In this document: positions 29,304 to 33,382 of the stretch, in pieces | Numbering within the stretch: the first letter of the stretch is position 1 | Layout of the letters: every line of letters begins with the position of its first letter | Assembly: GCA_016934645.1 (NCBI GenBank) | Contig: JAFGSL010000532.1 | Coordinates: 1 to 49,323, forward strand | Reading direction: 5' to 3' | DNA length: 49,323 nt | From: Anaerolineae bacterium | GTDB taxonomy: Bacteria; Chloroflexota; Anaerolineae; B4-G1; SLSP01 | Made by a program: the position numbers and the translations under genes | The notes under the pieces: model-generated | Seen by the model: the letters and a program-made list of their open reading frames with translations, nothing else | Told to the model about the DNA's origin: nothing | The model's database searches: none

Positions 29304-31790
29304 TCACTTCACGCCGCGCGGCATACGTTCACGTTCAACGGCCAACAGCCGCTTGACGATAGGGTAGATACGGTGTGCCAGTTGCATCAAGTTGATAGGT
29401 TCGAATTCTTCAGCCTCTTCTTCCGCACGTTGCACGATGGGGGCAGATTGCACACTCAAGGTATCACCAGTTTCCATCGGTGTGCGCTGGATAGTCTCCG
29501 CCAGAGTTGGAGGGGATGCAGGTTCTTGTTTTTGGGCGGGCGGTATGGTTTGTGGGCGCGCCAGGGGCATAGCCGGCGATTCCACTTCCGGTGATGGGGG
29601 GAAAACAGTCCTCTTGGTTGAGGACGTTGTCCTCTGTGCTGGTGGGGTGCTGCTGGTTGGCGTTGCGCGTGGCAGGTTGAATAGTGGCAAGCGGGTCTCA
29701 CCTTGTGCCAGTAAATTCTCGTATTGGGCGCGTGCAGCCATCGGTGTAGGCGTTGGCTGATCAGTGGATGCCGTCTGCTGTTCTCCCAATCGTAGCACGG
29801 TCAAATCAGGCATTGGCCCGATGCGTTGGACAGGGGTTCGCGCGTAGAGTGCAGGGGATGCCATCCATGGCGGTGTCCCACGGTTGTAAAGGGGCGCGCG
29901 TGGTGTCAGGGCTGGTGATGATGGTGTGCCAGGCTTGTGCTTGCGTTGGACAGTCATGACTGCGCGCCTAGCTGACGCTGACGGGCGGCTCAGGGCTACC
30001 TGTGCGTGGGCAGTCGCCTGGGCCTGGATATCGTGACCCGACATCAGCAGAGGTGCTTCGGTGATGGTGGCTATTGTTGATTCTTCTGCGGATGGCTGCT
30101 GCAAGTGCAATAACCGTGCGGGTGAGGTTGCCGATTCTATCGCCTGACGTTGCACTCTTGGCGCTTGGATCGGGGGTGCCAAGGGGAGTGATTCCGGTTC
30201 GGTGGGGGCTGGCTCCCTGCGAGGTTGTATGAGCGGAAAGGGTGCAGCCTCACGCCGCTCTAGGCGCGCGATGGATAGCATTTCCGGCGGAGGGTTTTCG
30301 ACAGCATCCGCCAGCCGTGGTATGCGTGGGGACGCTGCTGGAAGCTCAGATTCACCGGCTAGAGGGTTTTCTCGCGGTGGCTTTGCCGGTGAAGGTGCGG
30401 CTACTTCCTGGTGCGGTATCGGGACGGCTTGGCGCGTGGGTTCGGCGGTTGTGGGGCGCGCGGAGGACGCTGCTGGAGTCGGCGTCTCTGCCGGCGCGCG
30501 TCGAATCGCCGGCGATGTGCTTTCCCGCTGTCCAATTTCTGGAGAGGCGGTTTGTGAGGGTGGCTTAGTCGCCAATGGCACTGCCAGTTTCACTTCGCGT
30601 GGCGTGGGGGTCTCCAGTGTGCCAGACGTCGGCATCTGCGTGACTTCACGCCGAATGGGTGATACGGTGCTAGTCGTCAGCGTCTCAATACTCGGCGCGG
30701 GTGCAGTGGGTGTAGGAGAAGGCGACGGAGTCGTCGTGGGCGCGGATTGTGCGATCGGCAGTTTAGGACTCACACGCGGTGGAGTAGGATGTTCCGTTGC
30801 GGTTCGTGTGGGTATGAGCGGTCGCGCTGCCGCTTGTGGCTCTGCTTCACGGGCGAATTTTGGAGGTGGTGGTGATATTTCCGCTATGGGCGTCCGTTGG
30901 ACTGAAGGCGGGGCTGCTTCCTTGCCCGGCTGTGGTTGTGGTTTGGCGCTCGCCTGGGGCACGGACCGGATCGTCGCGGGCGATCTAGGGACAGAAGGGG
31001 GGGGCGAATCTAACGGCGCGCGCGGCATTTTTGCCGGAGCCTCTTTACGCTGCGCCAGCGTTAGTTTTGGCGCGGACGGTTTACCCGTATCCTCTTGGGC
31101 CGTTTCTGGACGCTCTTCATCTACTTCCCGCTTCTGTGGCGGGGGAAATTCTTCTACACGTGCGTAGCGCCGCGCGTTGGGGGGCGGTGGTTGGCGTTTT
31201 GGCGCGCGTTTCGTTGTTTGCGCGGGGGATGCGGAGCGTTTTGGCATGGGTGGAATCGGTGTGCCACCTGACAGCGGCGGAATCGGTGTACCGCCTGACA
31301 TCGCTGTGATCGGTTTGCCACCTGATTTGGCGAGCAGTGCACGTCCCAAATCAAAGATGCTGGGGCCTGTGACCGTCGAACCTTCTGCTGTGCCCGATCC
31401 TACGGCGAGAGGTAAGTCCACAGTGTCTTGAAAGCTTTGTGGAGATTCGACAGGATGGAGACGCGCGCTGACCAGTTCCAGCATCTGGTTGCGTTGGATG
31501 ACGCTTTGATTGAAGTTTTTGACCAGATCGGGTTTCAGCGCACCCACGTCGGGCTTCCAGACGATTGCGCGTTCCTGCCGGCGCTGGGCACGGTTGAGTA
31601 ATGCCCGGGTGTTCTTGAGCGTCAGTGGTGTGGGGGGACGTTGCGTGAGGGTGGGTTTTGTATCTTGAGCTTCCAGCCGCTGGCGCACCCAGGGTGAAAG
31701 TGCACGGCGCGTGCGTTGCTTTAGCATTTCTGCTGCCCGCTGGATGTAAGTAGACCGCGCGTCTGCGCCTGGATTTGGTTGTTCTGGCAC
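29304..31790 (-). CDS. Large proline-rich, mostly disordered eCIS protein with conserved-looking ends
   Basis: 828 aa starting at GTG behind CCGGAG. The N-terminal 115 residues look ordered and basic (YIQRAAEMLKQRTRRALSPWVRQRLEAQD, VIQRNQMLELVSARLHP). Residues about 120-770 are low complexity, rich in Pro, Ala, Ser and Thr, with short repeats (SGGTPIPPLSGGTPIPPMP) and scattered IQR/VQR motifs. The last 30 residues form a short helix (INLMQLAHRIYPIVKRLLAVERERMP). It lies between a tube gene and the LysM gene. The place is that of a tape-measure or hub-linker protein, but so much proline argues against a helical ruler. I do not recognise the family; it may line the tube or hold cargo. Confidence 0.7.
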   Translation of the reverse strand: MPEQPNPGADARSTYIQRAAEMLKQRTRRALSPWVRQRLEAQDTKPTLTQRPPTPLTLKNTRALLNRAQRRQERAIVWKPDVGALKPDLVKNFNQSVIQRNQMLELVSARLHPVESPQSFQDTVDLPLAVGSGTAEGSTVTGPSIFDLGRALLAKSGGKPITAMSGGTPIPPLSGGTPIPPMPKRSASPAQTTKRAPKRQPPPPNARRYARVEEFPPPQKREVDEERPETAQEDTGKPSAPKLTLAQRKEAPAKMPRAPLDSPPPSVPRSPATIRSVPQASAKPQPQPGKEAAPPSVQRTPIAEISPPPPKFAREAEPQAAARPLIPTRTATEHPTPPRVSPKLPIAQSAPTTTPSPSPTPTAPAPSIETLTTSTVSPIRREVTQMPTSGTLETPTPREVKLAVPLATKPPSQTASPEIGQRESTSPAIRRAPAETPTPAASSARPTTAEPTRQAVPIPHQEVAAPSPAKPPRENPLAGESELPAASPRIPRLADAVENPPPEMLSIARLERREAAPFPLIQPRREPAPTEPESLPLAPPIQAPRVQRQAIESATSPARLLHLQQPSAEESTIATITEAPLLMSGHDIQAQATAHAQVALSRPSASARRAVMTVQRKHKPGTPSSPALTPRAPLYNRGTPPWMASPALYARTPVQRIGPMPDLTVLRLGEQQTASTDQPTPTPMAARAQYENLLAQGETRLPLFNLPRATPTSSTPPAQRTTSSTKRTVFPPSPEVESPAMPLARPQTIPPAQKQEPASPPTLAETIQRTPMETGDTLSVQSAPIVQRAEEEAEEFEPINLMQLAHRIYPIVKRLLAVERERMPRGVK

Positions 31791-32629: not shown

Positions 32630-32800
32630 TTATCGTAATAGCATGCCTTGGCGTTCGTTCTCCAGACGCAACTCGTGCTTAAGCAATTCGATGACGGCTT
32701 CTGCTAGTGCTTCCAGCTCAGCATTCTCTATATCCCCAAAGACGTATTCGTCGTCGCCTTCGAGAGCGTATAGGCCTGATTCATCGTAAATTTGCGGCAT
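32630..32800 (-). CDS. Small acidic 56-aa protein in the tail cluster
   Basis: Frame MPQIYDESGLYALEGDDEYVFGD... continuing as a predicted amphipathic helix (ELEALAEAVIELLKHELRLENER). The ATG is two bases after the TAG of the -1 frame extension, so re-initiation is likely. A small ORF at this place between chaperone and tube genes fits a tail-assembly factor, but I do not recognise it. Confidence 0.6.
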   Translation of the reverse strand: MPQIYDESGLYALEGDDEYVFGDIENAELEALAEAVIELLKHELRLENERQGMLLR

Positions 32801-32802
32801 AT

Positions 32803-32973
32803 CTATTTCTGACTGGCTTCATTAAGCCTGCGATTGATTTTGGCGACCTCTGCAACCCAACGGCGACGTTGCCGGTGCTCTAGGTTGAGGATGTCGTCAA
32901 GTGGCCAGTGAAAGTGATAGGCAACGTAGGCTACCTCCTCATGCAGGCGATCGAGGGGGTAGCCTATGATACC
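32803..32973 (-). CDS. DUF6760-like extension in the -1 frame of the tail chaperone
   Basis: Encodes GIIGYPLDRLHEEVAYVAYH, then FHWPLDDILNLEHRQRRRWV and about 18 more residues, the pattern of small DUF6760-type tail proteins. From the TAA at 33007-33009 to the TAG at 32803-32805 this frame has no ATG, GTG or TTG. It becomes continuous with the upstream chaperone by a -1 slip on the G8 run (32972-32979): GGG GGG then GGT ATC. The fused product would be 177 aa. This parallels the G/G-T frameshift of tail-assembly chaperones. An indel in the homopolymer or a rare ATC/ATA start are the alternatives. Confidence 0.7.
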   Translation of the reverse strand, partial: GIIGYPLDRLHEEVAYVAYHFHWPLDDILNLEHRQRRRWVAEVAKINRRLNEASQK

Positions 32974-33335
32974 CCCCCCAGATTTGCCAAATCGATCTCG
33001 AGGGTGTTATTGCAATGGGGGCAGAGCACTGAGCGTGTAGTCCTGCCGGTTTCGTTGATTTGCCGGTAGAACTCCTGGAGATAGGCCAAGTCGGCGGCAA
33101 AGAGATTCTCGACAACGCTGGTGTTGATGTGTTGTAGTTCTCCCAGGCTTGTGATCACGCGGGCGAGCAGCACGATGACCAGGTATGCCTCGTTGGACTG
33201 CACCCGCATATCGTTAAGGGGCGTAATCTCGTCCATCGCCGTCGCCAGGCGCATGGTGCCGCGCTTGTGAACATTGCCCTCGCGGTCTACATATCCTACC
33301 GGCAGTGTGAATTCGAATTCGGTTTGCAAGCTCAC
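32964..33335 (-). CDS. Tail-assembly chaperone-like protein with CxxC end
   Basis: 123 aa from a GTG at 33335 with GGAGG at correct distance; an earlier TTG at 33350 overlaps that ribosome-binding site and is rejected. The sequence (FEFTLPVGYVDREGNVHKRG, RLATAMDEI, EAYLVIVLLARVITSLGEL) is of the type annotated in phage and eCIS clusters as tail or baseplate-hub assembly chaperone. The C-terminus SVLCPHCNNTLEIDLANLGG holds a CxxC that may bind metal with a partner. The normal stop TAG is 6 bases after the G8 slip site, so two products are expected: a short one and the DUF6760-fused one. Confidence 0.8.
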   Translation of the reverse strand: MSLQTEFEFTLPVGYVDREGNVHKRGTMRLATAMDEITPLNDMRVQSNEAYLVIVLLARVITSLGELQHINTSVVENLFAADLAYLQEFYRQINETGRTTRSVLCPHCNNTLEIDLANLGGVS

Positions 33336-33382
33336 GGTCAAAACCTCCAAAGGTAGATTGTTATTGATGATGGTTGTTTATA

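Follow-up and report, generated by a model that had tools for sequence, protein, structure and literature searches.

A slip run and a conserved hairpin point to programmed -1 frameshifting between a tail assembly chaperone and DUF6760 in contractile injection systems

The window analyzed here is the whole stretch of 49,323 nucleotides on contig JAFGSL010000532.1 (assembly GCA_016934645.1) of an Anaerolineae bacterium, in which a tail assembly chaperone gene and an overlapping DUF6760 frame lie among genes for a sheath, three T4 gp19-like tube proteins, a LysM tube protein and a spike, together with two baseplate proteins and a weak gp25/TssE match. These neighbours belong to a contractile injection system, and since scores against the NCBI CIS equivalog models stay under the cut-offs, no injection-system class is assigned. 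Tube genes flank the chaperone on both sides. A proline-rich, low-complexity protein of 828 aa is encoded just upstream of the baseplate genes (29304–31790, minus strand), for which no Pfam (E 0.01) or PHROG match was obtained. It occupies the slot expected of a tape measure protein or a tape-measure-related effector, a place filled in Streptomyces davawensis by a tape-measure-related effector (passages of PMC11126660), and from this position our guess is that it is the partner of the chaperone. Injection systems without a typical tape measure protein have been reported from Streptomyces (passages of PMC10066040) and from haloarchaea (passages of PMC11566945). A small acidic ORF was also observed at 32630–32800 (minus strand), with its ATG at 32800, two bases behind the DUF6760 stop; it showed no Pfam family match, and its PHROG matches were at chance level.

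The chaperone gene (32964–33335, minus strand) starts with GTG at 33335, ends with TAG and encodes a G-like protein of 123 aa in the 0 frame, with GGAGG at 33344–33348 (minus strand) as its likely ribosome-binding site. The PHROG profile phrog_508, ‘tail assembly chaperone’, matches the window protein (E 7.4e-7) and all 38 chaperones of a diverse alignment (best E 1.9e-9), and phage Mu gp41 (PF23746) weakly matches three of the 38 (best E 0.0011). The structure model of the chaperone was of middling confidence, and the fold search returned no fold relative. A CPxC motif was observed close to the C terminus of the window protein (33000–33035, minus strand) and of relatives, and some of the 38 chaperones gave weak zinc-ribbon matches. 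Among the matches listed, the chaperone relatives with an organism name are all Anaerolineae, Anaerolineales or Anaerolineaceae. On the minus strand the junction at the chaperone stop reads CTG GGG GGG GTA TCA TAG, confirming the initial annotation, which had described a run of eight G (32972–32979) with a stop close behind, the 0-frame TAG lying at 32964–32966. The proposed slip heptamer G GGG GGG (32973–32979, minus strand), which also figures in the heptamer table of the relatives, has the form X XXY YYZ in the 0 frame that a slip sequence requires, and G GGG GTA (32970–32976, minus strand) would be possible as an alternative.

The -1 frame stays open over 33006–32803 (minus strand), down to its TAG at 32805–32803, and would supply the C-terminal extension of a 177-aa fusion. 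Codon-by-codon reading of this frame from 33006 to 32803 revealed no ATG, GTG or TTG, as had been reported, and the earlier description of its product as DUF6760-like was upheld by PF20546, which matches at 32812–32952 (minus strand) with a Pfam E value of 3.3e-16 and a score of 59.6 bits vs a Pfam cut-off of 27. Many of the database DUF6760 proteins (P0121–P0240) begin far upstream in the overlap or within the domain, for example at LHEEVAY, while others begin with M or V directly before GYP; such odd starts are expected if many of these proteins have no start codon of their own.

A hairpin, which the initial annotation did not mention and which is the strongest part of the case, was found at 32927–32966 (minus strand), starting 6 bases behind G GGG GGG. 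In its stem, TAGGCTACC (32958–32966) pairs with GGTAGCCTA (32927–32935), followed by one mismatch and four inner pairs. The stretch of 58 bases folds at -21.4 kcal/mol with a z of -3.36, and a longer stretch of 95 bases gave a z of -2.19. The combined slip-run and hairpin pattern GGGGGN{6,9}RGCTACCN{21,23}GGTAGC, composed after the relatives were seen, occurs once in the window and in none of 100 shuffles. The sole Rfam match, mir-3204, was rejected, being far below its cut-off (22.7 bits vs 90).

Relatives were collected from several sources. A scan of genome contigs yielded 38 loci, in 37 of which DUF6760 lies in the -1 frame, and 20 of the 41 plasmid records with a match were taken. In five searched genome sets, whose group names were assigned by inference, PF20546 was detected in 10 of 151 genomes from the phylum and 35 of 199 from the class of an Ornatilinea genome (G001), in 10 of 196 from the phylum of an ANME-2 archaeon, in 18 of 194 from the phylum of a cyanobacterium and in 13 of 146 from the phylum of a Myxococcales genome, with 0 of 14 control genomes positive in each case. 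For the scan of loci, 120 chaperone proteins and as many DUF6760 proteins served to build profile HMMs. In 140 of the 141 loci with both genes (100/101, 11/11 and 29/29 by locus set), duplicates counted and several bacterial phyla and archaea included, DUF6760 lies in the -1 frame, so neither chance overlap nor homopolymer error accounts for the arrangement; in the single exception, L075, it is in frame 0 relative to the nearest chaperone match. The alignment of homologous loci that had been proposed as a check thus returned the same overlap and an in-phase slip run. From 146 sources (the window and L001–L145), 120 distinct junctions were retained after the exclusion of five without a DUF6760 hit (L038, L062, L071, L072 and L076), four in which the anchor motif failed (L081 and L114–L116) and 17 duplicates.

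In 109 of these 120 junctions GGG is the slip codon of the 0 frame, whereas elsewhere in both genes GGG makes up 200 of 1010 glycine codons. A fitting heptamer, under a script that also accepted any G GGG GNN, was present in 118 junctions and absent from two. The main forms were G GGG GAA (53), G GGG GGG (20), G GGG GAG (16) and G GGG GGA (15), the window itself being counted as G GGG GTA because the script takes the last fitting heptamer, while G GGA AAT was found in four haloarchaeal loci and G GGC CCT in two Myxococcota loci. Most relatives carry a run shorter than eight G in the same phase, and five G is the rule outside Chloroflexota; the eight-G length described in the initial annotation is not the essential feature. 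At the three possible start places, 83 junctions have none of ATG, GTG, TTG or CTG, 31 have ATG, GTG or TTG and six have CTG; of the 65 distinct junctions that came to light only with the five genome searches, 42, 19 and 4 fall into these classes. Cultured carriers lacking a start codon at the overlap include Ornatilinea apprima P3M-1 (L009), Nostoc sp. UHCC 0926 (L057) and Paraburkholderia caribensis MBA4 (L058). It had been anticipated that relatives with a DUF6760 start of their own and no overlap would count against slippage, and in the 31 junctions such a start does exist, but the frames still overlap there.

The structure downstream of the slip at a short fixed spacing that a frameshift site requires is found in the window (32927–32966) and throughout the family, with 5 bases between the last fitting heptamer and the stem in 92 of 97 junctions; frame, slip and structure, which should likewise be conserved at such a site, are all kept in relatives. 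The six-pair core of the hairpin is intact in 99 of the 120 distinct junctions, namely in 80 of the 83 without a start codon, in 17 of the 31 with ATG, GTG or TTG and in two of the six with CTG. The association of core and missing start gave a Fisher p of 1.2e-8 when CTG is counted as a start (80/83 vs 19/37) and of 1.4e-5 when it is not, p values which, like the one given below, overstate the case as the loci are related and not independent trials. The 83 loci without a start were selected independently of the hairpin; 84.4% of their cells pair vs 29–53% with slid partners, and changes on both sides were counted in 40 cells vs 18.1 in shuffles, with 0 of 500 shuffles as high. Two of the five measures were not above shuffles in these 83 loci, these being pairs with double changes (6 vs 5.2) and further pair types (19 vs 17.3), and the unaided RNAalifold consensus was weak, with 4 pairs kept at -0.87 kcal/mol.

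Judged by its codons, the hairpin is conserved at the DNA level, and coding does not explain it, because the hairpin valine codon is GTA in 92 of 94 cases vs 114 of 1181 elsewhere in both genes, and because all five changes from valine to isoleucine face TAT. Among Myxococcota/delta loci of an earlier set of 91 junctions, the corresponding fractions for GTA were 9/9 and 0/80. Isoleucine ATA faces TAT in 5/5 loci and GTA faces TAC in 91/92 (Fisher p 9e-8); the five loci are L015 from Chloroflexota, L095 from the cyanobacterial search and L110, L111 and L113 from the Myxococcota search, and since the last three are alike, they amount to about three changes. When the codons of both arms were redrawn, the observed mean pairing exceeded the null in most groups (6.37 vs 4.92 in Chloroflexota, 6.68 vs 4.80 in cyanobacteria), with modest single-locus p values (median 0.095, Chloroflexota), and in Actinomycetota it lay below the null (2.56 vs 3.07). 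The reading of the fixed GTA as a backup stop, through the 0-frame TAG in GTAGCC, was rejected: ATAGCC also retains TAG, so a backup stop does not account for the pairing of ATA with TAT, and the TAG is missing from two hairpin loci that have GTG. In L110, L111 and L113 the G run is lost (CCC CTT GA, with TTG over the stop), and the hairpin is kept with paired TAT/ATA.

The 21 junctions without the core were also inspected. In eight of them a different hairpin forms at this position, each with a z lower than -2 (L050 -3.9, L053 -4.0, L054 -4.3, L056 -2.7, L064 -5.3, L065 -3.6, L070 -4.2 and L078 -2.4), and eight others, each of which carries an overlap ATG or GTG, show folds at about chance level or worse with z above -1 (L061, L066, L073, L077, L079, L123, L132 and L134). 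The remaining five gave z values of -0.99 (L059), -1.5 (L067), -1.3 (L080), 0.4 (L069) and 0.9 (L074). This pattern agrees with slippage and coupled initiation replacing each other, except that L069 and L080 have neither a start codon nor a clear hairpin.

A search with the 177-aa joined query gave 4587 hits, and four single-ORF proteins spanning both parts stand among the best 120. P0242–P0244 are fusions joined at the expected place, each being one sequence on one contig, so that errors may lie behind them, while P0241 was rejected as a fusion, its frame changing upstream of the junction in an indel-like manner.

Taken together, the near-universal -1 overlap, the GGG slip codon in 109/120, the fixed spacer, the hairpin with compensatory changes and the lack of a start in 83/120 support the earlier proposal of a -1 frameshift joining the chaperone to the DUF6760 extension as the best reading by comparison. 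The pair is very probably expressed by programmed -1 ribosomal frameshifting, which would yield the 123-aa chaperone and the 177-aa fusion. The slip, spacer, hairpin, phase and missing starts, and their recurrence across phyla, are taken from the sequence, whereas the ribosomal shift itself, its rate and the roles of the two forms are inferred from lambda. Most ribosomes would pass G GGG GGG without a shift and terminate at TAG, giving the G-like chaperone, whereas a minority would be slowed by the hairpin starting 6 bases behind the heptamer, slip back one base and read through DUF6760, giving the GT-like fusion. By analogy with lambda gpG and gpGT, the chaperone part may hold the protein of the tube lumen and DUF6760 may bring in the tube subunits.

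Besides the weak unaided consensus fold, the two measures not above shuffles and the modest outcome of codon redrawing, two observations speak against frameshifting. After slippage on the commonest heptamer, G GGG GAA, the central position of the A-site codon would have to form a G-U pair, and 31/120 junctions carry an overlap start of ATG, GTG or TTG; 17 of these 31 keep the core, which makes coupled initiation possible in part of the family. In coupled re-initiation, ribosomes that have terminated on the chaperone gene would begin anew in the -1 frame, with the G run acting as Shine-Dalgarno sequence for a weak start codon, which in the window would be ATC or ATA. The five-G run could indeed act as a ribosome-binding site, several of the overlap starts take the form ATGA or GTGA, six further junctions offer CTG, and annotated DUF6760 genes begin at the overlap in Nostoc, Streptomyces and Haloferax records. 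As an account of the window it is nevertheless unlikely, given that 83/120 junctions have none of these four codons, that the codons at two candidate places differ greatly among those 83 (9 and 20 kinds, GAT, CGG, GAG and AGC included), and that the hairpin, which would hinder re-initiation, is kept most where starts are missing. In relatives with an overlap start codon, where the hairpin is often gone, coupled initiation may have replaced slippage.

Slippage of RNA polymerase on the G run, by which some messages with an altered number of G would encode the fusion, is of a kind known in bacteria, and eight G are long enough to be slippery; we consider it very improbable here, as the fitting heptamer is G GGG GAA in 53/120 and G GGG GAG in 16/120 junctions, outside Chloroflexota the run as a rule has only five G, and a conserved downstream hairpin at fixed spacing suits ribosomes better. 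Hardly any weight falls on an error of sequencing or assembly in the run, with one fused frame or two ordinary genes in truth: homopolymers are error-prone and the single-ORF fusions exist, but the same phase recurs in 140/141 loci from many assemblies, cultured strains included (L009, L057 and L063), with runs shorter than eight G in most. A wider reading, which we rate at about even chances, is that a -1 frameshift cassette encoded by the cell, with a slip run in G phase, a hairpin and a short spacer of fixed length between them, is old and common to bacterial and archaeal contractile injection systems and makes a G/GT-like chaperone pair; the hairpin would have been rebuilt with different bases in several lineages and dropped where DUF6760 gained a start, so that recoding and coupled initiation would be interchangeable means to one protein ratio.

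The slip heptamer of phage lambda is G GGA AAG, and four haloarchaeal relatives carry the similar G GGA AAT. As in lambda, the chaperone gene of the window is found amid genes for the tube and the tape-measure slot, and its product matches a phage profile for tail assembly chaperones. It differs from lambda in that the system is not a phage and no phage record matched, the slip is mostly a G run, the extension is DUF6760 and a conserved hairpin lies behind the slip. Phage Mu gp41 has a frameshift extension as well, and its likeness to the family, a weak match in 3/38 chaperones, concerns the chaperone part alone. T4-like phages, whose tails share T4 gp19-like tube proteins with the window, reportedly use a mechanism other than frameshifting for their tail assembly chaperones (Vladimirov 2022). 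A cellular gene with -1 frameshifting is dnaX of E. coli, which like the window has a slip heptamer with a downstream hairpin, uses an upstream Shine-Dalgarno-like stimulator in addition, and differs in gene, slip bases and purpose. Lambda gpG and gpGT, a short chaperone and a longer form made by a -1 slip near the 3′ end, resemble the pair proposed for the window. According to passages of PMC5009743, they occur at 30:1 and both interact with the tape measure protein, while the tube subunit is bound by the T part; -1 frameshifting is named there for haloarchaeal tailed viruses as well.

No paper mentioning ‘DUF6760’ was found in the literature search. The word ‘frameshift’ is not used in the injection-system papers searched, which cover Streptomyces, Chloroflexota, haloarchaeal and metagenomic systems (PMC10020575, PMC10066040, PMC12998442, PMC11566945, PMC10286715, PMC12210884 and PMC11126660), and the single chaperone passage in the Streptomyces coelicolor paper concerns a different protein. 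Among the papers listed by the broader literature searches, in which subscription journals are sparsely represented, and in passages of PMC3711429, PMC8718954 and PMC13222765, frameshifting in injection systems was not described. It is thus likely, though not proven, that the finding is new. Contractile injection systems attract study both as natural delivery devices and as engineered ones. If the frameshift reading is true, these systems would have an assembly factor so far overlooked, the recoded chaperone pair, the odd start positions of many DUF6760 entries would be explained, clusters moved to other hosts should retain the slip site, and conserved -1 frameshifting would extend to cell-encoded genes of bacteria and archaea, with the relatives serving as a natural set of slip sites and hairpins for testing.

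The chaperone showed no match in 50,697 phage records, and a protein-derived scan of viral contigs confirmed no chaperone locus. The DNA pattern matches 11 viral contigs, four of which (L148, L149, L153 and L155, 4.7–9.9 kb, from a viral collection) hold the chaperone-DUF6760 pair with its hairpin and may be injection-system pieces filed as viral. In L154 a weak chaperone match lies elsewhere.
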